A stretch of 38,351 nucleotides of DNA. It comes from a virus. Shown one piece after another: positions 6,847-31,517 of this stretch (position 1 is its first letter; each line of letters starts with the position of its first letter). The notes under the pieces were generated by a model. That model worked only from the letters and a program-made list of their open reading frames with translations, made no database searches and was not told the DNA's origin. The stretch is from positions 1 to 38,351 of IMG/VR virus record IMGVR_UViG_3300010151_000040; one strand, written 5' to 3'. Position numbers and translations under genes: made by a program.

Positions 6847-6877
6847 ATTATCCCCTGGTAACCCTTAAATTATAACA

Positions 6878-8552: not shown

Positions 8553-8694
8553 GTGGGAGAAAATAGAGAAAAGATTGTCTCATTTAGAGGCTCTTTCACA
8601 TCCTTCTGTAAATTGGGAGAGAAAAATACGATCTGTAGAAGATGCCTATAATAGATTATATGATTTAATAAAAAATAAAATAGGAGATAAGTGA
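8527..8694 (+). CDS. Hypothetical 55-aa helical protein
   Basis: The frame begins 26 bases before the preceding stop and reads MDSEAEKIRWEKIEKRLSHL and on, ending LYDLIKNKIGDK. Charged, helical and soluble, with heptad-like spacing. Its start resembles that of the protein at 4250-4723 (SEAKERIRWEQ against SEAEKIRWEKI), but I treat this as chance or a short shared helix. It is coupled by ATG/TGA overlap to the next gene. Function unknown; perhaps a lysis-cassette partner. Confidence 0.5.
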   Translation: MDSEAEKIRWEKIEKRLSHLEALSHPSVNWERKIRSVEDAYNRLYDLIKNKIGDK

Positions 8695-8846
8695 TGCCAC
8701 AAATAATTGCATTCATAACAAAAACATTGTTAACTGAAAAAATAATGAAAGTAGTTGTAATTGCTTTAGGAGATTATCTAGTAAGGAGTTCAAAAAACAA
8801 ATTAGATGATATAGCTTGGGCGCAGGTTAAAAAAGCATTAAAATAA
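8694..8846 (+). CDS. Small amphipathic or membrane-associated protein (50 aa)
   Basis: Starts in a TGATG overlap with the preceding stop. The N-terminal half is hydrophobic with scattered lysines (MPQIIAFITKTLLTEKIMKV then VVIALGDYLV); the C-terminal half is charged (KNKLDDIAWAQVKKALK). It could be membrane-active or an amphipathic helix pair. It closes the lysis-like cassette. No family recognised. Confidence 0.5.
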   Translation: MPQIIAFITKTLLTEKIMKVVVIALGDYLVRSSKNKLDDIAWAQVKKALK

Positions 8847-9617
8847 ATGAATGATATAAAATTACAAGAGGGACATCCTATTGATGAGAATCTACGACCT
8901 TTAAAAGTAGGGGATAAAAGTAGTAGCTTGGAACTTGCTGATACAGATAATGGTGCAAGAGTAAGAGGCGATCTTGAAATAACAGGAAGCATACCAAGAG
9001 TAAAGACTAATCGTATAGTATCACATAACCTTTATATTGCTGATGATACTTCTATATATATGGATTCAAGAAGGGGCGAGTTCTATATGTTGGAAAATGG
9101 AAGAGAATTTAGTTCTTCAGGTAGTGCTTATGCAGGTATGATCTTGGGTTATACAAGAATACAAAATGATGGGACAAATTCTCCTGATAATGTAATATCA
9201 TTAACTACCACTATGACAGTTCTCCAAACAGCATCAGGAACAGATGTTGGAGTTACCTTTGTAGCACCACCATCAGGAAATGTAGAAATTCAATTTAGTT
9301 GTTATTTTTATTCAAGTTCAACAACAGTAGGGTTTGCATTATCTGATAATGCAAGTTTTAATGAAGTAGATGAAACCCACACTTACGATCAGGGTGCATA
9401 TAGAATGGATGAAACAGACTCCAATACAATAAATATTCCATTTGCAGTTACAGGCTTGACAAGTGGAACAGAATATACATATTATATTGGGGCAGAAGAA
9501 GTGATAGGTTCAACGGCAAAAATATATCATGGCAGATTTAGATTAACTGGGAGTCATTATCCACCAATAATAGTTAAGGCAATAGCATTGCCTGATACAA
9601 TAAGAACAGGAGAATAA
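8847..9617 (+). CDS. Beta-rich virion protein, fibre- or decoration-like
   Basis: The 256-residue protein begins with a segment common in tail-fibre-like proteins (PLKVGDKSSSLELADTDNGA then RVRGDLEITGSI, about 18-49). A Ser/Thr/Gly-rich beta-sandwich-like region follows (TMTVLQTASGTDVGVTFVAP, GLTSGTEYTYYIGAEEV). The latter part resembles a fibronectin-III or carbohydrate-binding sandwich. No cysteine network and no signal. It starts just after the preceding stop and is followed without gap by the next gene. A decoration, whisker or fibre role is inferred. Confidence 0.5.
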   Translation: MNDIKLQEGHPIDENLRPLKVGDKSSSLELADTDNGARVRGDLEITGSIPRVKTNRIVSHNLYIADDTSIYMDSRRGEFYMLENGREFSSSGSAYAGMILGYTRIQNDGTNSPDNVISLTTTMTVLQTASGTDVGVTFVAPPSGNVEIQFSCYFYSSSTTVGFALSDNASFNEVDETHTYDQGAYRMDETDSNTINIPFAVTGLTSGTEYTYYIGAEEVIGSTAKIYHGRFRLTGSHYPPIIVKAIALPDTIRTGE

Positions 9618-10442
9618 ATGCCTACTTTTACAGGACAAGCATTTGCGAATTTTTATAAAAGAATTTTACAGGTAAGCCAAACTACCAATACAGGTGTTGA
9701 TTCTACAACTCGTTTTATTGAGGATGGTACAGGTGTTAAAACTGCTATAGGAATAGCCGATGACCAACTATTAGTAAAGCCGATAAATGATAATTCTATT
9801 TCTACTTTCGATGTTCAAAATAATGCAGGCAATGGGATATTAAAGGTAGATACAACTAATTCACTTGTTAAAGTAGGAGCATCACAAGTAAGTGCCACTA
9901 CTCAATATGCTCATTTTGGATGTTCATCATCAGAAGTGGTTTCATTAAATTTTTTAGCAGATACACATTATGCTATACCATTTACTAATACTCAATATGG
10001 TGCAACTTCTGCAAATTATGCAATGGGTACTTCTACAACAGGCAGTTTTAATGACACAAATCCTGCTACAACTTTAACTATATCAGGTACAGCACACGAA
10101 ATTGTAAGAACATATTGGTATGTAATGGACAACATAACAATAGATGCAGTTAAATGGCTTCATGCTGCTGATGCTGCAGCAGGAGAAGCAACAGCAGGGC
10201 ATTTAATGGCTTATACAGTTGATATAGCCAATGGTTCAACAAGTGGTGATTTAACATCAGGTACTGTTGTAGCAGATGGTGCAAATATAACCAATGCAGG
10301 TTATGAACAGATATATTATCAATCAATGACAGTTCAATCAGCAGATGTAGATGCAGGAAAAGTTATTCTATTTACTTTTGCATCAGATACAGTTAATAGT
10401 GATTATTCAATTAATGCAACAGTTAAATATCATATTAGATAA
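9618..10442 (+). CDS. Beta-rich virion protein (274 aa)
   Basis: The N-terminal part (FANFYKRILQVSQTTNTGVD) looks like a fibre anchoring segment. The repeat-rich middle and the C-terminal TGSFNDTNPATTLTISGTA and AGKVILFTFASDTVNSDYSI parts suggest a beta sandwich like those of surface fibres of marine phages. It follows the preceding gene without gap and precedes another virion protein. It may form the same appendage as its neighbours. No enzymatic motif seen. Confidence 0.5.
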   Translation: MPTFTGQAFANFYKRILQVSQTTNTGVDSTTRFIEDGTGVKTAIGIADDQLLVKPINDNSISTFDVQNNAGNGILKVDTTNSLVKVGASQVSATTQYAHFGCSSSEVVSLNFLADTHYAIPFTNTQYGATSANYAMGTSTTGSFNDTNPATTLTISGTAHEIVRTYWYVMDNITIDAVKWLHAADAAAGEATAGHLMAYTVDIANGSTSGDLTSGTVVADGANITNAGYEQIYYQSMTVQSADVDAGKVILFTFASDTVNSDYSINATVKYHIR

Positions 10443-10454
10443 GGAGAAATAATT

Positions 10455-12164
10455 ATGCCAAACGGACAACCTGGTAACGGATTTGGAGGAGGGGGTGGAT
10501 ATTCACCTCCACCAAAAGGTACTTACGAAGGATCAGCAAGAAGAAATGGAAAGAAAAAAGAGCCTGTAACAAGTGTAAAAAAATCTATTGGTCATGTTGC
10601 AAGTGGCTCAGATTCAAATAAATTAATGTCATTTAGCCAATCTTTAAATACTGCAAGTGATGATGCTACTCTAACTTCTGTTAATGATGTTATACCAAGT
10701 AAAGTTGTTGTAACAAATACAGGTAATATTCCTACTCTTGCTATCTTTGTTTATGAAGAATATACTGATACTGATACAGATGCAGGACAAGCAACTGTTC
10801 AGACAATGTTACTACCAAATGAATCTGCAACTCCTCCGATAAAAGCAGCGATAGTTGAGGCAGGAAATAATCCATTAAGAGCATTAAATGGAACTGCAAC
10901 TGATTTTACTACAACACTTGGCGATACTTCTAATACAACAGCAGATTTTGAATCTGATTCAGGTGATAATGTTGCATCAGGTGAATTTAACAATACAGAT
11001 GATCCTGTTGTTTTTCAAATTGACAATGGGCATGAGAAATATCGTGTAGGAGATTATCTCCGTTGCGAAAATGAAATTGTAAAAGTAGAAGGCACTTATG
11101 ATGATAATCCAACTACATCAGCAGTTGCAGATGATCATATTGTAGTATCAAGAGGACATTTTGGTAGCACAAATGCAGTACATAGTGGAACTCCTGATTT
11201 AATGTTCCCTTGCACTAATGAATACCATGATTATGATATAAAATTACAAGGTAATTCACAGCTTGTTTCAACTGATGGTTTAGGTAGATTTAAATTATCT
11301 AATTTCTTTGGATATGGGAGAAAAAATGCTACTGCTGATAATGAAACTTTTGGTGTTGTTGCAGGTTCGGTTTGCTTCAGATTTTGGAGTAAGGCATACC
11401 AAAATGTATTTATGGGTGGAACAGGTGCAACAGGTGGAACAGGTGGTTCTAATATTCCAATTTCCCCCTCAACAGATTCAAAATTAACTGCATCAACTGC
11501 TTATGCTTTTAATCTAACTATTGATGATTCAAGTGCTGTTACTGTTAGTTTTACAACTGATAGTTCAAATACAAACTTTGGTGGCTCTAATGGAGTAATA
11601 GCAAAGATACAAGATGCTATTAATACTGCTACAAGGACAGCAGGGAATAATCTATATGGTTATGGATGTACAGTTTCTATTAAAAATGGTGGATTAAGAT
11701 TCACATCATCATCAAACTTATCACCACATGATGGAACAAATGGATCTAAAATATTACTTGCTGATGCAGGTAGTGGAACTAATCTTTTTGAAGGAACATC
11801 AGGAATATTCACTGATATATTAAATGTTCCATCAGCAGTTGCTCCTGTTATATCTCCTGTTTCTGTTTATGATCCTATTACTTATACAAAGACACCAAAT
11901 ATAGGTGCGATGTGTTATGATAATGGGGAAGGAGATTTAATATATAATAATAATAAAGTGGGGAAAATTAATTATGAAACAGGTGCTTTCGATATGACGA
12001 TTCCATCTTTACCAAATGCAGAATTTGAATTTTCACTTTCTCACAGTTCTGTTTTTGCAGGTAAATTAGACAATGCAAAAGAAGATTCTAATAGTCTTAT
12101 TGGAATCTATGGCAATGTAACAAATAAAAATATGACAGGTGAATTAAGGATAGAGGTCTTTTAA
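10455..12164 (+). CDS. Multidomain virion protein, possible head fibre or whisker
   Basis: A 569-residue protein. The N-terminus is Gly/Pro-rich (NGFGGGGGYSPPPKG), then basic (RRNGKKKEP). A beta domain follows (SKVVVTNTGNIPTLAIFVYE), then an acidic middle, a short Gly-rich hinge (GGTGATGGTGGS near 325-336) and a segment near 340-445 (STAYAFNLTIDDSSAVTVSF ... SIKNGGLRFTS). That segment has the look of the flagellin-hook IN motif of flagellar hook-associated proteins. The C-terminus is again beta-rich. It probably lies on the capsid or neck surface. Domain calls are by eye and tentative. Confidence 0.45.
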   Translation: MPNGQPGNGFGGGGGYSPPPKGTYEGSARRNGKKKEPVTSVKKSIGHVASGSDSNKLMSFSQSLNTASDDATLTSVNDVIPSKVVVTNTGNIPTLAIFVYEEYTDTDTDAGQATVQTMLLPNESATPPIKAAIVEAGNNPLRALNGTATDFTTTLGDTSNTTADFESDSGDNVASGEFNNTDDPVVFQIDNGHEKYRVGDYLRCENEIVKVEGTYDDNPTTSAVADDHIVVSRGHFGSTNAVHSGTPDLMFPCTNEYHDYDIKLQGNSQLVSTDGLGRFKLSNFFGYGRKNATADNETFGVVAGSVCFRFWSKAYQNVFMGGTGATGGTGGSNIPISPSTDSKLTASTAYAFNLTIDDSSAVTVSFTTDSSNTNFGGSNGVIAKIQDAINTATRTAGNNLYGYGCTVSIKNGGLRFTSSSNLSPHDGTNGSKILLADAGSGTNLFEGTSGIFTDILNVPSAVAPVISPVSVYDPITYTKTPNIGAMCYDNGEGDLIYNNNKVGKINYETGAFDMTIPSLPNAEFEFSLSHSSVFAGKLDNAKEDSNSLIGIYGNVTNKNMTGELRIEVF

Positions 12165-12229
12165 TGCCTAAATCTAAATATAAAAAGAAACCTATGAAGT
12201 CAAAGAAACCTAAAAGAAGGAGATATTAA
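12164..12229 (+). CDS. Lys/Arg-rich micropeptide (21 aa)
   Basis: An open frame exactly bridging two genes through TAATG overlaps at both ends (12162-12166 and 12227-12231), a sign of real coupled translation. The peptide begins MPKSKYKKKPMKSKKPK and ends RRRY; 12 of 21 residues are Lys or Arg. The AAGGAGATATT inside its end is the ribosome binding site of the next gene, so the frame may exist partly by chance. If real, it could bind DNA. Confidence 0.35.
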   Translation: MPKSKYKKKPMKSKKPKRRRY

Positions 12230-13191
12230 TGGCTACTTCATCTACATATTGTACACATAGAGATTTAAAAGATATATATCCTAATCTAGATGAGTTTGAT
12301 GCTAAAACCCCTATATATGGATGGTCAACAGTATCAAGTAATAAATATGCTGCCCATAATAGTGGCTTAGTTACCCAACTATTTGCAGATGGAGAGGATT
12401 TGGGTCCAGCACAATCTGCTCATACTGATTTAAATGTTGAAGGAGAATGGTTTTATAATTCAGCAGAGGATATATGTTATTATTACTCAGCAAGTACACC
12501 GGCAGATAAGTTAATGGAGGCAGGAGAAGAATTTTCAACACTAATAACACGAATTATGAAAAATGGATCAAGATATGTTGATTCTCGTATTGATAGTGGC
12601 GTTCCAAGAGATGCATTTAAAGACAAAGAGGGTAATTATGATTATTTTCTAATTAGAACAGCATCCTTAGTTTCTATATATTTTCTTATAAATTCTCATA
12701 ACCCTGGATCAGATGTTGCAGAAAAATTCTTAGCAGAGGCTAATTTTAATATTGATCAGATAAATACTGGTAAAACAAAACTATCTTATCAAGTTACAGC
12801 AGATTCCGCAGGTGGAGTTGTTAGAGAGGTAACTTCTCCTCAAGCAGGCAATCCTTTATATATAGTAGATACTAGGGGTAGATATGCAGGTGTTTATGAT
12901 TTAATGAAGATAATTATAACTACTGCAGGGGCGATAGGAACTGCTAAGTTTGATGTATATAATAAAGATGATACAGGTTTAAAGCAAAATAAAGTTTTAG
13001 ATGCAGAGCTTATTACAGGAGATTATCAACATATAGGTGGAGGTCTTCAGGTTAGATTTTCAGGTAGTACAGATGCTTCTGCTGCAACCGTTAACGATGA
13101 ATGGGAAATAGAGTGCTGGGGTCAATATGAATCTCTAGATGATTCTCCTGGTAGTGGTACAAATACTAGATTGACTCGTAGGACTTATTAG
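12229..13191 (+). CDS. Head-tail connector (adaptor) protein with inserted beta domain
   Basis: The N-terminal YCTHRDLKDIYPNLDEF and the helical part TLITRIMKNGSRYVDSRIDS (about 105-124) followed by DYFLIRTASLVSIYFL resemble the helical head-completion adaptors (gp36/DUF1320-like) that sit under the portal. A beta insertion (residues about 28-95) and a C-terminal beta domain (about 195-320) enlarge it beyond the usual 120-150 residues. Position before other neck proteins and the tail tube supports the role. Moderate certainty. Confidence 0.5.
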   Translation: MATSSTYCTHRDLKDIYPNLDEFDAKTPIYGWSTVSSNKYAAHNSGLVTQLFADGEDLGPAQSAHTDLNVEGEWFYNSAEDICYYYSASTPADKLMEAGEEFSTLITRIMKNGSRYVDSRIDSGVPRDAFKDKEGNYDYFLIRTASLVSIYFLINSHNPGSDVAEKFLAEANFNIDQINTGKTKLSYQVTADSAGGVVREVTSPQAGNPLYIVDTRGRYAGVYDLMKIIITTAGAIGTAKFDVYNKDDTGLKQNKVLDAELITGDYQHIGGGLQVRFSGSTDASAATVNDEWEIECWGQYESLDDSPGSGTNTRLTRRTY

Positions 13192-13200
13192 TTATAAATT

Positions 13201-13635
13201 ATGGCTACAAGTTTTACAAACAATTGGAAGAATATCTTAGATAAGTTGCAAAGTGTAATTAGATCGGAATTTAAAAATACTTTGCCCACTTATAAAGGTT
13301 TTGATAATGATCCAGCTGGATCACAATATCTAAGGCTAATACCTATAGGTAGTGATCTTCTAGGATATAATATAACATCAGAAACAAGGGAATTTAGTAT
13401 AAATATGATTCTACATTTTAAGAGTGCAAATATAAAAGAAACAGCTTTAGATCACATACTTAGGCTAGTTTCTAGATTAGAGTCTCTTATAGTAGACAAT
13501 ATTTCTATGACTCTTACTGATAGTAGTAATTTTTTTAATTGCAGAATTGAGTCTACATCGTTTGATTCAACTAATCCAGAAGAACATATTGTTACCCTTG
13601 ATTTTAAAGGTGTACATATGGGCAATATAAGTTAG
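13201..13635 (+). CDS. Tail terminator / head-tail joining protein
   Basis: The 144-residue protein has an N-terminal helix (NNWKNILDKLQSVIRSEF), a beta region (EFSINMILHF), a helix (ALDHILRLVSRLESLIV) and a final strand (EEHIVTLDFKGVHMG). This is the alpha-beta order of tail terminator proteins (lambda gpU-like), which cap the tail tube. Its place directly before the tail tube gene is the standard one. There is no clear ribosome binding site, and only nine bases separate it from the previous stop. Confidence 0.55.
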   Translation: MATSFTNNWKNILDKLQSVIRSEFKNTLPTYKGFDNDPAGSQYLRLIPIGSDLLGYNITSETREFSINMILHFKSANIKETALDHILRLVSRLESLIVDNISMTLTDSSNFFNCRIESTSFDSTNPEEHIVTLDFKGVHMGNIS

Positions 13636-13645
13636 GAGAAAAACA

Positions 13646-13822
13646 ATGAAATATGTATTAAAAAAAATAACATCAATATCTGCTATAAATGATTGGCAAG
13701 GTCTTGGCAAAGAAGTTGCAGAAAAATTAGAAAAAGGAGAATCTGTTGAAATAAAAGATGCTCCTAAATCCTTGCTTGATGGTGGATATTTAGTAGAGAA
13801 TAAGAAAAAAGGAGATAAATAA
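13646..13822 (+). CDS. Hypothetical 58-aa protein between neck and tail tube genes
   Basis: Good ribosome binding site (TTAGGAGAAAAACA-ATG). The sequence reads MKYVLKKITSISAINDWQGL, then KEVAEKLEKGESVEIKDAPK, ending LVENKKKGDK. The form (short strand, helix, strand) is typical of small joining proteins found between the terminator and the tube gene. It ends in a TAATG overlap with the tube gene. No named family. Confidence 0.6.
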   Translation: MKYVLKKITSISAINDWQGLGKEVAEKLEKGESVEIKDAPKSLLDGGYLVENKKKGDK

Positions 13823-14814
13823 TGGCAACTTTAGACCAGACTGTATATTCAGGTAAACAATATGAAGCATTTATTTCAATTCAGTCAGATGCTTTGGGAA
13901 CAAATGATGTAAGTGGAACATTGTATAAATTAAGAGTTCCAGAAGTTAGCGATATTGATTTTTCAGCTGGGTTTCAAACTGCTGATGTAGAAAGAACTGG
14001 TCAAAGAGTTTTAAGACCTACAGATCATATCAAGGTGTATAAAGGTGGTACTTTCACATGGGCTTTTGATGGCTTGGTAGTTGAAAATGAAGCATTGCTT
14101 CAAACTTTATTACAATTAGTAAGCGAAGATGCTTCTCCATCAGGAACTGTCTCAATACTTGGGAATCAGGGAACTGTAGCCTATGAGCAAGGTGCAACTA
14201 CAGGAGAATATGCTTGTATAGTTTTATCTTCTCCTGATGCCGATAAAGATAGATTAATGCACAGTTCTATATTGCAAGAACTCACTTTGAGTATGAGTCC
14301 TGCAGATAACGGAGGTTTGCTAACAGCAAGTGGAACTTTTTGGAGTGGTTATCAGCCTGTTATAGGGGCTGAAAGCACAGCTGCCGATGCTACTGCTGTT
14401 GATTGGTCTAAAGGATACTTTGATTGTACGACTTCTCAAATAGGTGGAGATGATGTTGTGATGAATAACTTTTCATTAACAATATCTAATCCAGCTACAA
14501 GAGTTGGGTATGAAACAGTAAATAGTATTACTGGAGAACCAACTGCTTATATGAGAGGTGGACAAATATCAGTTACAGGTAGCCTTAGTGCGAAATTAGA
14601 TGATAATGTAGCTCAAATCATTACTGAAGATTTCCTTATTGGAACTTCTACTAATGTTAGCATAGGAGATGGCTCATCAATAGACTTCGATATACCAACA
14701 GCTAAATATACAGGGCATACACATACAAATGTAGATGGAGGTATGTTTGTTGATCTTCCATTTATGGGTACAGCAGATGGCTCTGGTGCATTAGTTACTA
14801 TTATTGCTACTTAA
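13822..14814 (+). CDS. Major tail (tube) protein
   Basis: The 330-residue protein fits the hexameric tube subunit. Beta-rich segments include EVSDIDFSAGFQTADVERTG (about 37-56) and GQISVTGSLSAKLDDNVAQI near 254-273, with a central helix (NEALLQTLLQLVS). The place before a frameshifted chaperone and the tape measure is diagnostic of siphovirus tail modules. It would polymerise around the tape measure. Length is slightly above average, suggesting an added surface domain. Confidence 0.75.
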   Translation: MATLDQTVYSGKQYEAFISIQSDALGTNDVSGTLYKLRVPEVSDIDFSAGFQTADVERTGQRVLRPTDHIKVYKGGTFTWAFDGLVVENEALLQTLLQLVSEDASPSGTVSILGNQGTVAYEQGATTGEYACIVLSSPDADKDRLMHSSILQELTLSMSPADNGGLLTASGTFWSGYQPVIGAESTAADATAVDWSKGYFDCTTSQIGGDDVVMNNFSLTISNPATRVGYETVNSITGEPTAYMRGGQISVTGSLSAKLDDNVAQIITEDFLIGTSTNVSIGDGSSIDFDIPTAKYTGHTHTNVDGGMFVDLPFMGTADGSGALVTIIAT

Positions 14815-14838
14815 TATGAATAAAATTAGGAGTTAAAA

Positions 14839-15147
14839 ATGAGTAAAAAAACCGTAGAACTCAAATCTAAGAGAAAAGTCGATTTAAAAGAAATGTTAAT
14901 AGATGAAGTTGATTTTTGTAACGATGTGGCAGTAATGAAATATGAAAATGGGGAGATTTCTCATATTAGTGGTCTTTCAAAAACTCGTACTGCATGGCTT
15001 AGACGAGGTATTAGTGGTGGAGACTTTAAATCGTTCAAGACTGGGGCAGATGGATATCCGGTTGATTCAGTTTTAAAAGAATTATCTGAAGAAGAAAAGA
15101 ATGAATTGGTTCAGTTGGTACAGGAGTATCAGAGCCTGGGGGAATAG
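14839..15147 (+). CDS. Tail assembly chaperone, short form (G-like)
   Basis: The 102-residue product begins MSKKTVELKSKRKVDLKEML and ends EYQSLGE. It lies between tube and tape measure genes, the position of lambda G. It has a good AGGAGTTAAAA binding site. Ribosomes that slip -1 near its stop would make the longer G-T fusion (see 15141-15596). It would bind the tape measure protein and bring in tube subunits during tail assembly; it is not part of the finished virion in known systems. Confidence 0.75.
   Translation: MSKKTVELKSKRKVDLKEMLIDEVDFCNDVAVMKYENGEISHISGLSKTRTAWLRRGISGGDFKSFKTGADGYPVDSVLKELSEEEKNELVQLVQEYQSLGE
15136..15147 (+). other. Programmed -1 frameshift site
   Basis: The zero-frame codons are CTG GGG GAA TAG (15136-15147). 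The glycine tRNA on GGG (15139-15141) can move back one base and still read GGG (15138-15140) because five Gs run in a row (15138-15142). Translation then continues through GGA ATA GAA in the -1 frame, which stays open to 15596. This is not the classic X-XXY-YYZ heptamer but a poly-G slip next to a stop codon. Confidence 0.65.
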
Positions 15148-15596
15148 AATCCCTCACGCTATCACTAAATGTCTATCTTGACAATTGGTGTGAGGGGTGC
15201 AATTTTCATACATACCCCTATGAGGCTCAAGTTCCTATATCTGGCGAAGCAAATAGAGTTTTCACATGTGACAAGGATGTTTGGGATGTAGTTAAATTGT
15301 TAATAGCTGAAACCAAGGAGATTAATGAACAGATGGGTAAGAGTTTTGATATTGCAACTTCCATATCACAACAATTACCCTTTTTTAGTTGTATGAATGT
15401 TGTATTAAGTAAAGAATTTCAAAAAGATATTTCTAAATATTTATATTGTCAAAAGTTTAATGTTCCTCCTTTTAAAGGTTCTTATGGAGACCAATCTTAT
15501 AAATGGATTTTTAAAATAAATATAATAGATATTGCCAAACATAAGATGGAAGAAATGGCTAGAAAAAAAGCAGAAAAACAATCAAATATAGGATAA
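15141..15596 (+). CDS. Tail assembly chaperone, T extension made by -1 frameshift
   Basis: The -1 frame is open from before 15123 to 15596 and lacks a start codon with a ribosome binding site at its upstream end. The first internal ATG would discard a conserved-looking part (LTLSLNVYLDNWCEGCNFHT). Joined to 14839-15141 it gives a fusion of about 252 residues, like lambda gpGT. The T part has a CEGC pair and a later TCDKDVWDVVKLL helix. It ends nine bases before the tape measure ATG. Confidence 0.7.
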   Translation, partial: GIESLTLSLNVYLDNWCEGCNFHTYPYEAQVPISGEANRVFTCDKDVWDVVKLLIAETKEINEQMGKSFDIATSISQQLPFFSCMNVVLSKEFQKDISKYLYCQKFNVPPFKGSYGDQSYKWIFKINIIDIAKHKMEEMARKKAEKQSNIG

Positions 15597-15605
15597 ATAC
15601 GGAAC

Positions 15606-18134
15606 ATGGCTAAAATAAAGTATGTAAAAACTGTAACTGATGCAGTAGATAAGTTAGTAGGTGTTAAAAAGAAAGAAGTACAAGTTAATAAGGAATCTGC
15701 TAAAGAAAATAAAAAAGTAGAATCTAGTTATCGGTCTCAAGTAGATATATTAAAAGAACTCGTTAAGGGTCAGAATAGAATGATCCAAGGTATGAATAGC
15801 CTTATTGCTGCAACAAAAGGAACTGCTCGATCTACAAAAAGATTAAATCAACAAAATTTATTATGGGTTAAAAATACAAGAATCCTTGGTGGTTCATTAG
15901 CAGTTCTTCGTTCTAAACTTTTAGTATTTACATTTGGTATTGGACTATTAGAAAGAAGTATTGGCAAACTTTTAGAGGCATATGGAGATTTTGAAGAATC
16001 TCAAGAAAGGATAACAAGGGTTATATCTAGCACAGGTGGTGCCGCAGGATTAACTGCTAACGAAGTTTTTGCTATGAATGCTGCATTTGAGAAATCGACT
16101 GGCATTGCAGAAACAACTATTAATCAATCTTCATCAATACTTTTAACATTTACTAATCTAGGGCAAACTATATTCCCTGAAACACAACAAGCAGTTTTAG
16201 ATATGACTGCGGCTCTATATCATGGGAATGTAACAATGGAAGCATTGAAAACTACATCAATTCAAGTAGGTAAGGCTTTAAATGATCCTATTCGTGGATT
16301 AACTGCACTTAGGCGAGTTGGTGTTTCATTTAATGCAAGACAAAAATTAATTATAAAGGCTTTGCAAAATACTAATCGCCTTGCACAAGCACAAGGAATT
16401 ATACTTAAAGAATTAGAGAGAGAATTTGGTGGACAGTCTGAAATTCAAAGATATAATAAATCTGTATTAGAACTTAGTACTGCATTTGGAAATCTTGCAA
16501 AAAGAATAGGTGAAGACCTTAGACCTGCAATAGAACCTATGATTCAGTCGCTAACAAAGCTCGTAAATGCAATAGATGCTAGTGAAGTTATAGATTTTAC
16601 GAAAAGTTTTATAGGTTTAACACTTGCATTAGCTGGTGTTAAAAAAGCATTGCAATTAGGGCTTCTTGCTAGTGGAAGAAGTATAAAATCAATGAAAAGA
16701 TTAGGAAAGGTTGCAAAATTAATTGCCTTTAATATGATTGGTCTTACAAGTAGCGTTAGAAAAGGAACTACAGCAGTAAAAATTATGACTGTTGCGTTTA
16801 GGGCTTTATCAGGTATGACAGGAATAGGTCTTCTTGTTGCCGTTCTTTTGCCACAATTTTTAAGCATGTTTGATGATGTAGAAGAAAAAACTAAAGATGT
16901 AGGTAGTGGATTTGAAGATGCTAAATTAAAATTAAATGTTTTTAATAAATCTTTTGAAGCAGCAGAAGGCAGTAAAGATAAATTAATGAAACTTGCTAGA
17001 AGTTTAAATATGGTAAGCATGTTCACAAGTGCCTATACCCATACTGTTGAGAGCTTAACTGAGAAGCTCAAAGGACATCAAGTTCAACTTGAGAAGGATT
17101 TAAAACTAGAACAAGATTATATAGATGCAAAGAAAAAGGGACAAGGAGTTAATCAGCAGGCAAATTCTGATGTTACCGATATGACTCAAGGTTTTAAAGA
17201 TCAGCTATTTGTCTTGAAGGCATCTGTAGATGAAAATGGTACTGTTATTAAATCTAAACAGACTATGGCTAAAGCAGTTTCAGAACTTGCTGCGCATATA
17301 AATGTTGAAACTGGTGAGAATTTATCTCTTATAGAATCACAACAACTATTAGATCCGGCATTAAGAAATAGTATTGAGGCTTATACCGATTATATGGACA
17401 CACTTGAGTTAGTAAGGCAACAAAAGAAATTAGATATAGCATCTAATAAAGAGACGATGGATTCATATAGTCAAGTATTTTCAACTTTAAGTAGTGGTGT
17501 CACACAATTCCTTGAATTTGACTTAAATAGGTGGGAAGAGGGAGAAATTAGTAAACTAGAAAAGCAAAAAGATAATATAAATAGTACTATTAAAAATGAA
17601 AAAAATAAGGAAAAAGCACTTAAAAAAATAGATGATCAAATAGAAGCAGCTGAGAAAAAGGCACATAATAAAGCATTGGTAATTAAAGGTCTAGATTTAA
17701 CAATGGATCTATTTACAAGTATTGCTAAAATAAATATAGCTACTGCTACAGCCAAAGCAATGGCTAACTTACTTCCCCCTGGACTGAGAGAGGCACAAAA
17801 ATTATTTCTTGAGTCATCAAAAATGAAACAGATAGCTGTGGCTTCGGTACAATATGGCATTGGTATAGCAGGATTAGCTGCACAAAAAGCTGCTCTTGGG
17901 GCAGACTTTACAACTACTGGGCCGCAACTTATGATGGTTGGAGACAATCCTGGTGGTCGTGAACGTGTTCAAGTGACTCCACTTTCTTCTCCTAATGTTG
18001 CTGGACCACAAGGTGAGGCATCTGTAATTGTAAATGTATCAGGCAATGTCTTAACACAAGATTTTGTAGAAGATGAATTAGCAGAACATATAAAAGAAGC
18101 TGTAAGGAGAGGAACTGACTTTGGAATCGGTTAA
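15606..18134 (+). CDS. Tape measure protein
   Basis: An 842-residue, largely helical protein that sets tail length and helps DNA delivery. The N-terminus is coiled and basic (residues 1-90). A segment follows that is typical of tape measures (AMNAAFEKSTGIAETTINQS and ALNDPIRGLTALRRVGVSFN, about 155-245). Hydrophobic stretches lie near 330-360 and 395-420 (MTGIGLLVAVLLPQFLSMF). A second coiled region (about 640-690) and a C-terminal hydrophobic part near 700-770 complete it. By the usual rule of about 0.15 nm per residue, the tail would be roughly 125 nm long. The largest virion gene but one. Confidence 0.85.
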   Translation: MAKIKYVKTVTDAVDKLVGVKKKEVQVNKESAKENKKVESSYRSQVDILKELVKGQNRMIQGMNSLIAATKGTARSTKRLNQQNLLWVKNTRILGGSLAVLRSKLLVFTFGIGLLERSIGKLLEAYGDFEESQERITRVISSTGGAAGLTANEVFAMNAAFEKSTGIAETTINQSSSILLTFTNLGQTIFPETQQAVLDMTAALYHGNVTMEALKTTSIQVGKALNDPIRGLTALRRVGVSFNARQKLIIKALQNTNRLAQAQGIILKELEREFGGQSEIQRYNKSVLELSTAFGNLAKRIGEDLRPAIEPMIQSLTKLVNAIDASEVIDFTKSFIGLTLALAGVKKALQLGLLASGRSIKSMKRLGKVAKLIAFNMIGLTSSVRKGTTAVKIMTVAFRALSGMTGIGLLVAVLLPQFLSMFDDVEEKTKDVGSGFEDAKLKLNVFNKSFEAAEGSKDKLMKLARSLNMVSMFTSAYTHTVESLTEKLKGHQVQLEKDLKLEQDYIDAKKKGQGVNQQANSDVTDMTQGFKDQLFVLKASVDENGTVIKSKQTMAKAVSELAAHINVETGENLSLIESQQLLDPALRNSIEAYTDYMDTLELVRQQKKLDIASNKETMDSYSQVFSTLSSGVTQFLEFDLNRWEEGEISKLEKQKDNINSTIKNEKNKEKALKKIDDQIEAAEKKAHNKALVIKGLDLTMDLFTSIAKINIATATAKAMANLLPPGLREAQKLFLESSKMKQIAVASVQYGIGIAGLAAQKAALGADFTTTGPQLMMVGDNPGGRERVQVTPLSSPNVAGPQGEASVIVNVSGNVLTQDFVEDELAEHIKEAVRRGTDFGIG

Positions 18135-18507
18135 ACAATTATTCCAAGTATTCACAGATAAAGAATTATTTTTAGAATGGCTATTAGCTATAAATCTTGA
18201 TATTGGTCAGAAAATACTTAATGCACAGACAGGAATGAAAGTAGATAGATTTGCAGAGGTAAATGAAGAAATTGATTTGCGAACTGCACCAAAGGCAATT
18301 AAAGATAATAAGATATATAACCAAGAAGTATTAGATATGAGATGGAATTTATGTTCTTCCTGTGAATTTTTAACAGATGGGAAGAAGTGTCAAAAATGTG
18401 GATGTTTCATGACGGTCAAGCATAAACTATCACAGGCTCGTTGTCCTATAGGTAAATGGGGTAAATATAAAGAGGAAGCTATCCATGGCATTGCAACTAC
18501 CGGCTAA
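18121..18507 (+). CDS. Zn-ribbon tail protein, TTG start
   Basis: The 128-residue protein starts with TTG at 18121, preceded by AAGGAGAGG and overlapping the tape measure end by 14 bases. The second half has a treble of cysteine pairs (CSSCEFLTDGKKCQKCGCFM then ARCPIGKW, about residues 79-118), a likely Zn-binding ribbon. Proteins of this pattern are common beside tail tip or baseplate genes in marine phages, where the metal site stabilises a tip component. It overlaps the start of the hub gene by 23 bases. Confidence 0.55.
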   Translation: MESVKQLFQVFTDKELFLEWLLAINLDIGQKILNAQTGMKVDRFAEVNEEIDLRTAPKAIKDNKIYNQEVLDMRWNLCSSCEFLTDGKKCQKCGCFMTVKHKLSQARCPIGKWGKYKEEAIHGIATTG

Positions 18508-21500
18508 TTTTAAATCAGATATAGAATCAAGAGATACACAACTTTCTCCCCTTGTCATTATAGGTAATTGGGATAGAGAATCTTCAATATGGGATGGTGA
18601 TTACTATTATATTAGCACAAATCCTGATTCCGGAGCATTGCCTATTTTATTAGATATTACATCTTTAAAAGAAGGTATTGATTTAGAGGAAAGGACATAT
18701 AAAATGTCTACAGTTAATATTAATATCTCTGACTTACCCTACAATGGGAAAAAATTTACTGATATTATTGAAGGTAGAACAATATTGAATATGGAATGTA
18801 GAGTTTTTTGGAGGTCGCCTTCAACAACTACATTGTCAGTATTTGATTCTCCTTATTCAGAGATGAGAGATACAGATTCTATGCAAATTTATTTTGGATA
18901 TATTCGCAGATACGATCAAAGCAAAGATAGTATTAAGCTAATTGTAGAAGATAAAAGTCAAGATATTCATAAGAAATTACCTCTTGAGGAAACAGGATCA
19001 GGAGAGGATATTCCTGAGAAACTTAGAAATATACCAAAACCAATGGTTTATGGTTGGAATTTTACTCATAGCCCATTAACCTTTGATGGCAAAGAATTAA
19101 CCATTGATCCAAGGCTTGGTGATTATAATGTAGAGCTTGATGAAGATAATAATTATAATGGTGGATTGGTAAGTGAAGGTCTTGATGATACAATACCAAA
19201 TACTCCACCTTGGTCTGAATACGACAAACATTATAAAGGTGTCTACATCGGAGATGAGGAAGCTTTGGCAGTTGTATTAGAAACTCCTGAAGAGGATTTA
19301 GGTACATTAGAAGAAATATATGTAGGGCAGGAAACTAATGAAGATACTGGCGAAGCGGCAATTACTCTACAGGATTTAGAAAATATTTTACATACAAAAC
19401 AATTAGATATTTCTGATAATATAAATGGAATAATTAAAATTGGTTTAAATCCTTTAGTTCAAAAAAAAGTATTGCAATGTAAAGAATTTATTATTCCTGA
19501 TATTACGATAGCAGCCTATAATGGAACAACTGAGCTTGATACAAATCATTTTACTGGCTTTGGAGAATCCTTTGATCTGACGACAGCAGGGAATAATCAA
19601 CAACATAGTGTTGGTCATAATGGTATAAGTAATGAGTTTGAAGATTCTACAAGGTTTAAAATAAAATTTTCGATTGAACCAAAATCAGATTATGAGAATA
19701 AAAATATAAAATATGTTACAATGAATGGATTTATTCTTCCTTTTAGGAATGGAGTAGTTACTTCATTGGGTGGAAATGGTCATTACAATGACAGAGTTTT
19801 CGTATCATATGCATATCCAGATGGTTGGTTTCTAAATTTACATGGTACTGATAATGATGGTGGAATAGGAAGATACCACAGACCTGATGAAGCAGGATTA
19901 TCTCCTTCAGTTATTCCATATAATGGCGAGGCTTACGATACAAGTCCTATAACGGGAAGTTTATTTGGTTATCCACAATTTTATAGAGAAGATGGAAATT
20001 GGGCAGAATTTAATCAAAGAGGTGCAGTTACAAATGATGGAACTTACGCAGGTGTAATACCTGATATATCATTAACTACTGTGATGAATACAAGCTTTAC
20101 TCCATCTGGTACTGTTGGAGGAGGTTGTGGAGATGATCAGTTTTGTTGGAATGAAATTGGTGAAACTGCTGTCATATACTTTTTAGATTGGGCGCAGGTA
20201 GGCTATTATTATCCATCTTTGTCAGAAGGAGGTGATGATACAAGCGTTGCTGAGATAGGTAGACTTGTTGATAATGGTCAATATCAGATGTGGATAAAAC
20301 ATAATTATAAAGGAGTATTAACGCAGTATTTGACAGATAGTGCAACAAGTTCAAGTAAATTAACTATGTCAGGAAAAATAAATACTGCTACTTCAATTTC
20401 AATCGTTGATATACCAAAGATACATAAGAAAAAGTTTTTTGCAAAAATACGAGGCAGGATGATACCCTATGTAAATGGTCAATGGGCAAGTCCGAGAGAT
20501 AGAGCAAAAAATAATCAAGCAGAAATTATTTCAGACATAGCTATTAATGAATTAGGATATGAAGATGATATAGAGATTCCACAAGAATTTCTTTATCCTG
20601 ATGGCGATCTATCTCAAGGTTTTGGTTCTTCATTTACTTTAAATGAAAAAATAGATTCTAAAAAGTTTTTTGAGATTTTATCCTCTACTGCACCATTAAT
20701 TACAAGATTTAATTATTTAAGTAAATTTAAAATGAATACCATACCACATTTAAATCCTGTAGCATCAGATTTAAGTGGGAATCAAACTATAAAAGAAAAT
20801 GACGTTATTGATTTTAGTTTTACTTTATCTAAGATTGAAGATGTTATTACTAAATTAAAAGTGAGGTATGGATATAGCCATGTAACGGATAATTTTAATC
20901 ACGATACAGGTTTTATTTATGCTACAGGTCTTTATGATGGTTATGATATTAACCATTATAATTTAGATGATGATGTTGAAGTAGTAATAGAAGATGATCG
21001 AGCTAAATACATAGGTCAAGCAAGGGCATCAGATGGTTATGTTGAAAATTATGCTCATTGGCTACTAAGTTGGAAATGTAATCAGCATCTTAAAATTAAA
21101 GTTAAGCTTCCTTTGAAATATATGAATATTGAATTATGCGATATTATAGAATTTGAAAGTTTGCTTGGAGGTATTAAGCCTTATGGTATTGATTATCGTT
21201 TAAACAGTCCGTTTGCGAATAGAATAATAAATGGACAGCAGGCATATGATAAATTTATTGTTCATAAAACGAATAAAACACTTGAATATGTAGAAATTGA
21301 AGTTACTATGTTGCACCATACTTCACTCACTTCTTGTCTTTCAGGTATGTATGATTGCCTTGGTGAGTGCCTTGATTCAGCAGATGATCCCAATGGATAC
21401 GATCAATGTGATAATTGTTATGGTGGTTGCACTTATGAGGGCTGTGAAGAAGATTATTGCCCTTGTCAGCAACAATTTAATCCAGATGATCCTGAATATA

Positions 21501-22480
21501 ATGGTTGTAATCCACAAGACGATCCTCCTTGCACCCTAACTGCTGATTGTGCAGGTGAATGTGGTGGTGATGCAGTATTAGATGAATGTGGTGAATGTAA
21601 TGGTGATGGTGCAACTGTAGTATGTCCTGATTCAGACATAATGGTATGCCCCGGTGATGGACATCTATGTCCTACGGAAGGGAGCTTTTGTGATAGCGAT
21701 ACAAGTCTTAATGAAGAGGAATGTTCAAATTGGAGACCTTGCTACACAGTAGATAATTGTAATTGTTATTCTTCTCTTGCAGATGTAGAGTTAGCAGAAA
21801 ATGTAATGGCGTTAGGACTTATTAGAATGAGGGCGAACTTTGATGATGCTAATATAGGATGGCAAACTGATAATTCTTTTAATTCCCATCAGCCATGTGA
21901 ATTTATTAAGAATCAACCTTGTATATCAAGTCCTATATTTGATAACTGGGAAATTTCGTTTTCACATCTTGGTGGTATTCCTAATCTATGGGAAGGTTCT
22001 GAACTTAGAATAACTTTTGAATCAGAAGATAATATAACTTTATTCCCTGAAAATGAGCAATATCAGGATTTTACAGTATCCCTTACCCACCTAACTCCTA
22101 ATATTTCTTTTGGCGATTCACAATTATTTTCAAATGAAGATTTTGATACTATTAAAACAGGCAATGGTGAAACTTTTATTAAAGTAACACTTTATTTAAA
22201 TGCTTCATATGATGGTGTAGATCGTTATATGATATATCAATTTAGAATTAATATACAGGCACGAGATTGTCCTCTTATTGGAGATTTAAATGCTGATGGT
22301 GGTTTTAATGTACTTGATATAGTTGCCCTTGCTAACTGTATTCTTGCTAATAATTGTGAGGATATTCCAAATGCTTGTGCAGCAGATATAAATGGTGATG
22401 ATTACTATAATGTTCTTGATATTGTGCAGTTAGCTAATTGTATATTATTAGGAACTTGTGAGGGTACAGATAATGAGTAA
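18485..22480 (+). CDS. Large tail hub/adhesin with Cys-rich and dockerin-like C-terminus
   Basis: A 1331-residue protein, the largest of the window. Residues 1-180 (GIDLEERTYKMSTVNINISD, MQIYFGYIRRYDQSKDSI) look like the tail hub or distal-tail platform of marine siphoviruses; a long beta-rich body follows. Residues about 950-1093 hold 23 cysteines with D/G-rich spacing, including DCAGECGGDAVLDEC. A beta domain follows (about 1100-1255). The last 70 residues hold two EF-hand-like dockerin repeats, GDLNADGGFNVLDIV and ADINGDDYYNVLDIV, each with the D-x-N-x-D...N-x-x-D calcium ligands. Function: host binding at the tail tip. The C-terminal modules look acquired from secreted bacterial proteins. 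Confidence 0.7.
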   Translation: MALQLPANFKSDIESRDTQLSPLVIIGNWDRESSIWDGDYYYISTNPDSGALPILLDITSLKEGIDLEERTYKMSTVNINISDLPYNGKKFTDIIEGRTILNMECRVFWRSPSTTTLSVFDSPYSEMRDTDSMQIYFGYIRRYDQSKDSIKLIVEDKSQDIHKKLPLEETGSGEDIPEKLRNIPKPMVYGWNFTHSPLTFDGKELTIDPRLGDYNVELDEDNNYNGGLVSEGLDDTIPNTPPWSEYDKHYKGVYIGDEEALAVVLETPEEDLGTLEEIYVGQETNEDTGEAAITLQDLENILHTKQLDISDNINGIIKIGLNPLVQKKVLQCKEFIIPDITIAAYNGTTELDTNHFTGFGESFDLTTAGNNQQHSVGHNGISNEFEDSTRFKIKFSIEPKSDYENKNIKYVTMNGFILPFRNGVVTSLGGNGHYNDRVFVSYAYPDGWFLNLHGTDNDGGIGRYHRPDEAGLSPSVIPYNGEAYDTSPITGSLFGYPQFYREDGNWAEFNQRGAVTNDGTYAGVIPDISLTTVMNTSFTPSGTVGGGCGDDQFCWNEIGETAVIYFLDWAQVGYYYPSLSEGGDDTSVAEIGRLVDNGQYQMWIKHNYKGVLTQYLTDSATSSSKLTMSGKINTATSISIVDIPKIHKKKFFAKIRGRMIPYVNGQWASPRDRAKNNQAEIISDIAINELGYEDDIEIPQEFLYPDGDLSQGFGSSFTLNEKIDSKKFFEILSSTAPLITRFNYLSKFKMNTIPHLNPVASDLSGNQTIKENDVIDFSFTLSKIEDVITKLKVRYGYSHVTDNFNHDTGFIYATGLYDGYDINHYNLDDDVEVVIEDDRAKYIGQARASDGYVENYAHWLLSWKCNQHLKIKVKLPLKYMNIELCDIIEFESLLGGIKPYGIDYRLNSPFANRIINGQQAYDKFIVHKTNKTLEYVEIEVTMLHHTSLTSCLSGMYDCLGECLDSADDPNGYDQCDNCYGGCTYEGCEEDYCPCQQQFNPDDPEYNGCNPQDDPPCTLTADCAGECGGDAVLDECGECNGDGATVVCPDSDIMVCPGDGHLCPTEGSFCDSDTSLNEEECSNWRPCYTVDNCNCYSSLADVELAENVMALGLIRMRANFDDANIGWQTDNSFNSHQPCEFIKNQPCISSPIFDNWEISFSHLGGIPNLWEGSELRITFESEDNITLFPENEQYQDFTVSLTHLTPNISFGDSQLFSNEDFDTIKTGNGETFIKVTLYLNASYDGVDRYMIYQFRINIQARDCPLIGDLNADGGFNVLDIVALANCILANNCEDIPNACAADINGDDYYNVLDIVQLANCILLGTCEGTDNE

Positions 22481-23066
22481 ACTTTATTATGGTAATGGAA
22501 ATTGTAGTATAGAAGGAAATGGGATTAGGGGAATACAGATGAAATATGAAGGTTCTCCTGAGCTAACAGATAATACATCTAATTCATTTACAATAATGAA
22601 TAAAAATAATGGAATTATTATATTTCCAATCGGTGAAGGATACTTAACTAATCTATTTGACTATACAGGAACTATTAAAATACATTCTGTTATTGCTACA
22701 AATGATAATCTCGACAAGATTACAGTTTCTGTATCAAGGATTATGGACTATTCTGAACTATTGGGAGTTTCGGAAAGCTTAACAAGAAATAGTGAAGATA
22801 TGGACTCTACTCATACTATAAAAAAGAGTGGCAAACATATAATTTCATCAAGGATTATTCCAAATTTAAATACCTCAGCACATGATGTCTTGCTATATCT
22901 ATCTGACAAGACCTTGTATTCAGGTTATTTTCATATCCATTTAGATACAGGATCATGTATGACTGGAAAAGAACATACTAAGGAATCTAAAGATTTGTAT
23001 ATTGTTAGACAAGGGAATGATAAATTAGTATCAACAGAATATAGAAGAATACAAAAAGAAAGATAA
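22473..23066 (+). CDS. Tail tip or fibre-associated protein (197 aa)
   Basis: Start set at the ATG at 22473 (MSKLYYGNGNCSIEGNGIRG), with GAGGG upstream; a GTG at 22458 is possible but adds only five residues. Beta strands dominate (IRGIQMKYEGS, GIIIFPIGEGYLTNLFDYTG), with a basic C-terminus. It overlaps the end of the hub gene by eight bases and the next ATG by one. Proteins with this N-terminal pattern accompany tail tip genes in marine phages. Exact role unknown. Confidence 0.5.
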   Translation: MSKLYYGNGNCSIEGNGIRGIQMKYEGSPELTDNTSNSFTIMNKNNGIIIFPIGEGYLTNLFDYTGTIKIHSVIATNDNLDKITVSVSRIMDYSELLGVSESLTRNSEDMDSTHTIKKSGKHIISSRIIPNLNTSAHDVLLYLSDKTLYSGYFHIHLDTGSCMTGKEHTKESKDLYIVRQGNDKLVSTEYRRIQKER

Positions 23067-24130
23067 TGGCATATCAGAATGTATCTAAACCAAGATTTTA
23101 TGTGTCCATACTGCAATGGCTTGATGCAATCGGCAGCCTATCAAGTACATCAAAAGATGATGGAACTTACGCAGGTGGTTTATTAAGTAAAGCTCCAAAT
23201 GAATTAGTACATCTTAATCCATCAAAACAAGCACGAGTAGTAACTTCCTTGGATACTTATTGGCTTCAATTTCAATCAACAGTTGGCAATTATGATACCC
23301 TGATGCCTAATGATAACAATTTTTTTATGGTTCTTGGGCATAACTTTGGATGGAACTCTACTAAATTTCAAATGAGAAAAGCAGCAGAAGATGGCAGTCC
23401 TGTTGCTTCTACTTCAGTTGTTAATTATAATAGTGATGGGTCTGAATATGATGGATTTTCTATTGCAGAAGGCGATAATGCTTATGATCTTAATCATGAT
23501 ACAATAGAGATGTCGCTTTGGGATGTTCAACAGGCAGAGGGTGAAGATATTAAATTTGGTTCTGTATTATATGGCACTTATTATGATATGCCTTACTCTC
23601 CTGATTTATCTTTAAATCTAAATAGAGAATACAAGGGAACAAGCACAATTACAACCTACAATGGAAGTAGTTTTAGTAATACAATATGGACTAAGCCTCC
23701 TAAATGGGGAGCGTTACCAGCGTGGGAATTAAGCTATCATGCCGAATTAGATAAATATATCCTTAAACCTTCAAAATCAGGTCGTAGGGTTTGGGATTTA
23801 AAATTCTCATTTGTATCAGATAACGATATTTTTAGTTCTAATGAATCTATTGGTAAAGAAGGAACTCTTATAACAACTGATCTTGGATACGAAGAAGATG
23901 ATATTGGTGATGTTGGTTTTAAATATAATTTATTAACCGATGATAGCTTTTATTCGCAGGTTTGGCATAAGACACTAAATGGCACTTTGCCTTTTGTTTT
24001 TCAGCCGGATAAAGATAATTCTAATCCTGACCAATTTGCTATATGTAGATTTGTAGATAATTCATTTAAGGTAGAACAATCTGCACATAATATATACAAT
24101 GTTTCATTAAAAATTATGGAGGTTTGGTAG
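23066..24130 (+). CDS. Distal tail protein, paralogue A
   Basis: The 354-residue protein starts MAYQNVSKPRFYVSILQWLD and ends with LPFVFQPDKDNSNPDQFAIC ... SLKIMEVW. It is clearly homologous along its length to the next gene: shared SPDLSLNLNRE / SPDLSLKMTRE, GRRVWDLKFSF / GRRTWDLSFSY, SFYSQVWHKT / TFYSQVIHKT. Beta-rich, no cysteine cluster. Likely forms part of the tail tip or side fibres beside the hub. It starts in a TAATG overlap. Confidence 0.55.
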   Translation: MAYQNVSKPRFYVSILQWLDAIGSLSSTSKDDGTYAGGLLSKAPNELVHLNPSKQARVVTSLDTYWLQFQSTVGNYDTLMPNDNNFFMVLGHNFGWNSTKFQMRKAAEDGSPVASTSVVNYNSDGSEYDGFSIAEGDNAYDLNHDTIEMSLWDVQQAEGEDIKFGSVLYGTYYDMPYSPDLSLNLNREYKGTSTITTYNGSSFSNTIWTKPPKWGALPAWELSYHAELDKYILKPSKSGRRVWDLKFSFVSDNDIFSSNESIGKEGTLITTDLGYEEDDIGDVGFKYNLLTDDSFYSQVWHKTLNGTLPFVFQPDKDNSNPDQFAICRFVDNSFKVEQSAHNIYNVSLKIMEVW

Positions 24131-25216
24131 ATGGCTTATCAAAATGTAGGCACTCCTCGTTTCATAATAGATTGGCTTCAATGGTACAAGTCAATGGGGC
24201 TTATTAGAGGATATTCCATAGTTAATGGCACATCAACTAATCCTTCAGAATCTTCTGCTGTAAATAATTTAATAGGCTTATACCCTAATCCACAAACAGT
24301 AGCTCATGGTGGAGTACATAATGAAATGTGGTATGCTATTGAATCAGATAATTTTTCATTTCCTGCAAAAGATGGAAATGTTGTAGGCATCTTTGGACAT
24401 AATTATAAAGATAGTTCAGTTTATTTTAAAATGGGTTATAAAATAACTGGCTTTGTTAGTGAAAGATGTGTGTTGACAGATGATTTTGTTGTAAATGCAA
24501 ATACAGTAGCTAATGAATTTTCTTGTCCTAATAATGGATTTTCTTTACACTCTTATAGTGGAGTAACTTCAGTTGAACCACCTCATCACAACTCTAATGT
24601 AAGTTTAATGCCAATGGTTAGAAAAATAGATGGAGATCCTACACCTTCTGATGTGAGATTAGGATGTTTATTATGGGGTAAATATTTCGATATACCTCAT
24701 TCTCCCGATCTTAGCCTTAAAATGACAAGAGAAATGGATGGAACTAAGGCAAGTATTACTAAGGGAGGTAGCCATCTTGTAGGGCATAGGTATAAAAAAT
24801 CACCACTTTGGGGAGAATCTACACCTCCATGGGATACACCTAATGATCTTGCGAATTTATCTAAATATGGAAGAAGAACTTGGGATTTAAGTTTTAGTTA
24901 TTTAAGTGATAGCGATTTATTTCCAATGATTTCAAATCAAAGTGCTAAAGAATCTACATCTCCAACAGGAGAACAGTATTCTAATGAAGGTTCAGAATGG
25001 TGGGCAGAGAATACTTTATTAGATTCTGATACATTTTATTCCCAAGTGATTCATAAAACTAATGGTGGACAACTACCATTTATTTTTATGCCTGATAAAG
25101 ACAATCATAATCCCGATGGATTTGCTATATGTAAATTTGACATGAAGAGCTTTCAATTCAATCAAGTAGCCAATGGTGTTTATGACATTAAATTAAAGAT
25201 AAGGGAGGTATGGTGA
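24131..25216 (+). CDS. Distal tail protein, paralogue B
   Basis: The 361-residue tandem paralogue of the preceding gene, starting at the very next base after its stop. It begins MAYQNVGTPRFIIDWLQWYK and ends LPFIFMPDKDNHNPDGFAIC ... KLKIREVW. Central regions have diverged most (residues about 25-180), the two ends least, as expected if ends hold the assembly interfaces and the centre faces the host. It is the last late gene; the stop codon TGA lies in the loop of a hairpin (25207-25224). Confidence 0.55.
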   Translation: MAYQNVGTPRFIIDWLQWYKSMGLIRGYSIVNGTSTNPSESSAVNNLIGLYPNPQTVAHGGVHNEMWYAIESDNFSFPAKDGNVVGIFGHNYKDSSVYFKMGYKITGFVSERCVLTDDFVVNANTVANEFSCPNNGFSLHSYSGVTSVEPPHHNSNVSLMPMVRKIDGDPTPSDVRLGCLLWGKYFDIPHSPDLSLKMTREMDGTKASITKGGSHLVGHRYKKSPLWGESTPPWDTPNDLANLSKYGRRTWDLSFSYLSDSDLFPMISNQSAKESTSPTGEQYSNEGSEWWAENTLLDSDTFYSQVIHKTNGGQLPFIFMPDKDNHNPDGFAICKFDMKSFQFNQVANGVYDIKLKIREVW

Positions 25217-30746: not shown

Positions 30747-31517
30747 TTAAATCCCTTTACTTGTATCTTCTTCACATCTAGATTTAAAAGCACAATAACT
30801 GCATTCCCAACTAGCCACAGGGGACACTCCCTCTTGAAGAGTAGGTAGGCTATTTTTAGAATGTTCTGCATTTATCCTTTCCCAAAAACCGAGAGCAGTT
30901 AGTAGCCGATCTCTACTAACTTCCTTATACCTCAGCATAGAGGTATCCTTGTTATAATACAGAATTAACATTCCATCAAGCCTACCGAACTCCTTTTCAA
31001 CTGCAAGACCATAAGTAGCCAATTGCAATTCTTGATGTATCGAAGGCTCTCTCCTCTCCTTATACCTAGAAAATATCTTTTTATATTGGAATGAACCAAT
31101 GCTCTTGATATCATATAGGTAAACACGACCATCCTCCAACTCAATTACCAAATCTGCAAAGCCAAAGACTCTTATTTTTTTTAATATTATTTCTTTTTCT
31201 ATATATATATTATTTATATATATATTATATATACTAAAGTAAGAGTCGTTTCTTTCAATTTTTTTGAATGCATTTTGAATATCTTCATGAATCAAATCTC
31301 CTAGGCGAAATAACCTCTGAACTCTTTTATCTATAACTTCGGTTGGCTCTAGTCTCAGTATTGTCTCATAGTAGATTTTTCTAGAACACATACCTGCTGA
31401 TGATGGGCGATAATGAGGATCAGAAGGCTTAGCCTTATTGATTTCTTCTCTTTGTATTTGGTTGATTTCGATCAGATGATCGTGATATGTCGACTGAATG
31501 TCAATCGGGTGTTTCAT
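30747..31517 (-). CDS. Cas4/RecB-like exonuclease with Fe-S cluster cysteines
   Basis: The 256-residue protein has the PD-(D/E)XK order of Cas4/AddB-type nucleases: first cysteine in AGMCSRKIYY (C44), H77 in GDLIHEDI, D122 in FGFADLVIE, D136/K138 in YLYDIKS, QELQLATYGLA (Q-x-Y motif). C-terminal cysteines in ECSYCAFKSRC (C239, C242, C248) complete a four-Cys cluster. It would resect DNA ends to feed the annealing protein. A TATA-type tract in the gene encodes SIYNIYINNIYIEK (about 95-108). First gene of the DNA operon. Confidence 0.8.
   Translation of the reverse strand: MKHPIDIQSTYHDHLIEINQIQREEINKAKPSDPHYRPSSAGMCSRKIYYETILRLEPTEVIDKRVQRLFRLGDLIHEDIQNAFKKIERNDSYFSIYNIYINNIYIEKEIILKKIRVFGFADLVIELEDGRVYLYDIKSIGSFQYKKIFSRYKERREPSIHQELQLATYGLAVEKEFGRLDGMLILYYNKDTSMLRYKEVSRDRLLTALGFWERINAEHSKNSLPTLQEGVSPVASWECSYCAFKSRCEEDTSKGI
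31196..31236. repeat. A/T tract inside the exonuclease gene
   Basis: Runs of TATATATA and TTATATAT give the repeated codons for Ile, Tyr and Asn in the exonuclease (residues about 95-108). The tract resembles the one at 1354-1403. Slippage here would shift the reading frame of the nuclease, so it could be a switch; equally it may be a harmless product of biased composition. Confidence 0.5.

Follow-up and report, generated by a model that had tools for sequence, protein, structure and literature searches.

In a 38,351-base IMG/VR virus record from an uncultured, marine-type phage (the whole of which we call the window), a tail-tip hub of 1331 residues ends in a Cys-rich stretch, a variable segment and a pair of type I dockerin repeats, and these dockerins intermingle in phylogeny with those of a single clade of Neomarinimicrobiota. 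The chances seem to us about even that this C-terminus binds a receptor, as a module of host origin that plugs into a host cohesin.

The window has a siphovirus layout: the plus strand encodes the terminase, the major head protein and the tape measure, the minus strand DnaB and a methyltransferase; a Cas4-like exonuclease (30747-31517, minus strand) lies among the replication genes. Tail context comes from the tape measure protein (15606-18134, plus strand; PHROG tail tape measure, 4.7e-29), which a test of gene order found to be followed by a small Cys-cluster gene (18121-18507, plus strand; DUF6171, Pfam PF19668, 6.7e-8) and then by the hub reading frame (18485-22480, plus strand). The Cys-cluster gene is also present in relatives. 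Overlapping the 3' end of the hub is a conserved gene (MSKLYYGNGNCSIEG..., 22473-23066, plus strand), delineated from an alignment of six relatives; it is a syntenic marker of the phage family and served as search bait.

The hub begins with a large body (residues 1-947; 18485-21325, plus strand), whose sequence had no significant family match in PHROGs, Pfam or the PDB; one member of the hub family weakly matched Phage-tail_3 (0.079). An AlphaFold2 model built with 24 phage homologues (mean pLDDT 56.6, confident at residues 1-200 and 640-947 only) gave 22 Foldseek hits in the PDB with E no higher than 0.001, the best of them T5 pb3 (4.5e-9), with DT57C, lambda gpJ, T1, MuSo2 and GTA proteins also found. 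The match to T5 pb3 and lambda gpJ supports the assignment as a tail-tip hub, which the earlier note had assumed; with such a fold, the C-terminal modules extend beyond the tail tip, at the position where gpJ binds its receptor.

The dockerin pair occupies residues 1264-1327 (22274-22465, plus strand) and was delimited by PF00404, by alignment with relatives and by a tree. Pfam Dockerin_1 scored 25.1 bits on the hub (E 2e-5, residues 1266-1320) and 30.7 bits in the genome search (E 1.5e-8), both over the curated cut-off of 22.9 bits, bearing out the two dockerin-like repeats proposed in the earlier note. The two calcium loops are also as it described them: DLNADGGFNVLD (residues 1267-1278; 22283-22318, plus strand) and DINGDDYYNVLD (residues 1301-1312; 22385-22420, plus strand) are both complete, with Asp or Asn at five of five side-chain ligand positions, and ANCIL closes each repeat. 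Shuffling the C-terminal segment produced two such loops in 5 of 20,000 shuffles. The over-threshold profile match and the two complete loops together place the pair in dockerin type I, and to these we add five cysteines within it that had gone unremarked.

Ahead of the dockerins lies the Cys-rich segment (residues 949-1085; 21329-21739, plus strand), recognised by its Cys count and its matches to Neomarinimicrobiota proteins. The segment had been credited with 23 cysteines in about 140 residues; its Cys-rich nature stands, and our recount gives 22 in the 145 residues from 949 to 1093, versus 6 in residues 1-948. Its core motif, DCAGECGGDAVLDECGECNGDG (residues 1021-1042; 21545-21610, plus strand), matches many Neomarinimicrobiota genomes at up to 91% nucleotide identity over 65 bases when the window is compared by blastn with 245 genomes of the phylum. 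The same Cys repeats fill giant proteins in an unrelated contig (L004, IMGVR 3300030099_007384; 5244-16264), which carries a gene that is baseplate-wedge-like by sequence and gene order and in which one giant protein has a single dockerin repeat; these host modules may thus serve another phage group as well.

A further segment of about 175 residues, absent from the earlier note, separates the Cys-rich stretch from the dockerins (residues 1086-1262; 21740-22270, plus strand). It is probably beta-rich, has no significant match in Pfam and can barely be aligned between relatives; a model of residues 1086-1331 from three sequences was poor (pLDDT 37). Profile comparison gave no support to the idea that this segment is itself a cohesin (hhalign probability below 1% against host cohesins).

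The arrangement is not peculiar to the window. A first scan with the hub C-terminus yielded two more phage contigs plus one near-identical, and a hub scan added another; scanning with three phage dockerins gave more contigs, and conserved peptides from the hub N-terminus gave 26. Six contigs stop before the hub end can be read. Counting distinct lineages with a readable hub 3' end, including phage G246 and the window (n=20), we find the dockerin pair in 19, fused to the hub in 12 (among them L152, counted although its 20.8 bits fall under the Pfam cut-off) and in a small gene at the hub end in 7; the only readable lineage without it, L136, has a single degenerate loop. The alignment for the hub scan was seeded with dockerin-bearing phages; among lineages first found through hub or neighbour-gene scans, and not through the dockerin, the pair is present in 11 of 12. 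With the same arrangement in many independent contigs, a chimeric contig as the source of the dockerin is ruled out. Neither the hub nor a related dockerin had a match among isolated phages (50,697 phage records).

The small hub-end gene encodes 186 or 187 residues in two lineages and 217 in at least four. In five contigs (L148, 8835-9485; L154, L147, L140 and L155) the separate gene bears a second dockerin type, its length being exactly 217 residues in four of these lineages and similar in the fifth. In L144, a contig with a 99-base end repeat, the small dockerin gene lies at the opposite end of the contig; G246 closes through a 99-base overlap with one mismatch, and its hub frame is broken between two ORFs (L032, 10904-11009), reflecting either a real interruption or an assembly error. 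In two relatives (L129, 6654-8471; L130, 4305-5627) a second dockerin pair lies within a downstream structural protein, MAYQNVGTPRFYVN, whose counterparts in the window (23066-24130 and 24131-25216) carry no dockerin. Another counterpart of that protein, of 785 residues and with a weak, sub-cut-off CBM_4_9 match, lies in a prophage-like region of the genome G193 (L108, 5659-8013, minus strand).

We turn to the cellular relatives of these modules, which the earlier note had linked to secreted proteins of marine Marinimicrobia and similar bacteria. A scan with six short peptides from the window, to which distant dockerins of other phyla would be invisible, matched the hub C-terminus to 11 cellular loci, of which 10 bear the title Ca. 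Neomarinimicrobiota and one that of 'FCB group'; this last belongs to a genome within the Neomarinimicrobiota set (G009). All cellular relatives found are thus Neomarinimicrobiota, with no spread across unrelated phyla, and the link made in the earlier note is supported. A phage dockerin profile run against the 245 genomes scored 75-120 bits in five (G002, G163, G165, G166 and G167, the likely host clade, hereafter 'host clade') and at most 64 bits in the others.

In a tree of 88 dockerin pairs, ten phage dockerins (that of the window and nine more) interleave with 19 from the five genomes in one clade (support 100/98), the nearest partner of the window dockerin being one from G165 (96/90); the alignment behind the tree has 60 columns, and bootstrapping had not converged. 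These ten are 60-82% identical to dockerins of the host clade and 45-60% identical to others. For eight of them, a bacterial dockerin is nearer than that of any other phage. The second phage dockerin type falls outside this clade and has no close bacterial set among the genomes searched (at most 40.6 bits), so that the matching of dockerin type to host is seen for one type only.

Other links between phage and bacteria are of several kinds. Relatives of the hub body occur in four Neomarinimicrobiota genomes (G103, G192, G193 and G194), and in G193 a bacterial gene adjoins the phage genes; the readable hub relatives, those of G193 and G194, are without a dockerin. When the whole window was compared with the 245 genomes by blastn, the Cys motif and the dockerin stood out as the strongest islands, besides portions of the methyltransferase and of another gene, and no spacer-like match was singled out as a CRISPR or other DNA link. 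Nor did tetranucleotide signatures single out the host clade (G001 0.64, G002 0.57, G165 0.56). We infer that the phage infects a Neomarinimicrobiota clade in which this five-Cys dockerin serves as a tag on the bacteria's own secreted proteins.

One alternative is that the pair acts purely as a clasp, a cap stabilised by calcium and disulfides that closes the hub or the small downstream protein and engages no host partner. Such a role would fit the five conserved cysteines and the segment that precedes the pair in the same chain in nearly every case, including the separate proteins of 186-217 residues. We consider it unlikely, however: the phage dockerins are closer to one bacterial clade than to each other, although the preceding segment has diverged past alignment, one lineage (L151) has no segment ahead of its dockerin, and the dockerin-free hubs of G193 and G194 do without any such cap.

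If the dockerins instead engage a host partner, cohesins, with which dockerins usually pair, are the candidates, and the search of the presumed host for them that the earlier note had proposed was productive. The Pfam cohesin profile scores over its cut-off in 136 of the 245 Neomarinimicrobiota genomes, and all five host-clade genomes have matches at E up to 0.1, four of them over the cut-off and the fifth just under it at 23.2 bits. The host-clade genomes hold 1-5 Pfam cohesins each, whereas G002 has about 67 dockerins. A scaffold with several cohesins was not recognised in the clade with PF00963, which may miss the cohesin-like repeats of L007 and L009. Two secreted host-clade proteins, trypsin-like by sequence, run from enzyme through a Cys-rich stretch and a cohesin to a C-terminal dockerin. 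This order is close to that of the phage hub, whose tip thus mirrors the layout of host surface proteins, although its middle segment showed no profile likeness to a cohesin; in the bacteria, dockerins of this kind may function within their own chain. A 271-residue cohesin protein with a T9SS-type C-terminus (L114, L117, L118, L123) is a candidate partner.

A host partner need not be an entry receptor. The dockerin could bind secreted cohesin proteins of the host, leaving virions to linger in the matrix or to carry host proteins, while entry proceeds through some other receptor. The 271-residue protein, with its T9SS-type end, recurs in four of the five host-clade genomes (G002, G163, G166 and G167), in keeping with this role, as is the second dockerin pair that L129 and L130 place in another structural gene. 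Against it, the pair is kept at the hub tip in nearly all lineages, and it is there that gpJ-like tails usually bind their receptor irreversibly. To such a matrix or decorating role we likewise assign a low probability.

The blastn islands also bear on how the modules were acquired. Those of the dockerin, at 72-78% identity over 137-197 bases, lie in the same five genomes, G002, G163, G165, G166 and G167. Identical codons between phage and bacterial dockerins number 17-29, where about 18-22 are expected, mostly without excess; recent DNA transfer of the dockerin is thus unsupported, and the likeness to host dockerins is at the protein level. For the Cys motif, identical codons exceed expectation (17 of 19 versus 9.8, and 17 of 22 versus 11.4), although as the best of many matches this is weak evidence. 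That excess would suit a passive origin, in which recombination brought in modules from host surface genes and these have persisted with no specific binding function, but we judge this very improbable given the protein-level likeness of the dockerins and their 63-67% identity among three phages whose hub bodies share about 33%, a disparity that speaks for selection.

Under the receptor-binding reading, the hub body would sit at the tail tip, as do lambda gpJ and T5 pb3, with the Cys-rich stretch serving as a stiff spacer and the variable segment as an adaptor. The terminal dockerin pair would then plug into a cohesin domain at the host surface or close to it, a plausible role already raised in the earlier note, and a hub that is trimeric would display three dockerins, lending avidity. 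It is plausible, if a shade on the doubtful side, that this phage group infects uncultured Neomarinimicrobiota through cohesin-dockerin attachment, carrying the host's own tag on the tail tip, and that the dockerin has been re-acquired, or has tracked the host, several times to match host cohesins.

We found no receptors reported in the literature for phages of Neomarinimicrobiota (SAR406, Marine Group A), whose hosts are largely uncultured; a dockerin at the tail tip names a receptor class that can be tested and, on sequence evidence, connects a whole group of phages with one clade of hosts. Should the proposed role hold, the cohesin-dockerin pair, which is among the tightest protein plugs known, would join the modes of phage attachment, and the system would clearly exemplify how a phage can exploit a sorting or anchoring tag of its host. 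Our literature search found no published dockerin on a phage tail; a gene of VvAW1 has dockerin homology (PMC3558961), and a modelled dockerin likeness is described for vB_EcoS_HSE2 (PMC5967307).

With the dockerin type I of cellulosomes (PF00404), the window pair shares two D-x-N-x-D-x3-N-x2-D loops, each followed by helices, a C-terminal position and a score over the cut-off. It differs in lying on a phage tail hub, with five cysteines and no attached enzyme, and in that loop positions 10-11 are Val-Leu in place of the Ser-Thr typical of clostridial dockerins. With lambda gpJ and T5 pb3 the window hub has the fold of its body in common, and its C-terminal extension stands at the site of gpJ's receptor-binding tip; gpJ, however, ends in Ig-like domains, whereas the window hub ends in Cys-rich and dockerin modules. 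Ig-like tips of the gpJ type are fused in some phages and encoded in others by separate ORFs downstream of tail spikes (PMC12309495), the same pattern of fused and separate modules that we see here, although those are Ig-like phage modules and not host dockerins; the pattern fits a role in receptor binding. Nearest in kind among known systems is the BACON repeat of crAss-like phage tails, likewise a domain typical of the host phylum carried on phage tail proteins, and spread in part by horizontal transfer (PMC6949934). BACON is a repeated domain for which host binding has been suggested, whereas the dockerin plugs one protein into another, and the class of its partner is known.
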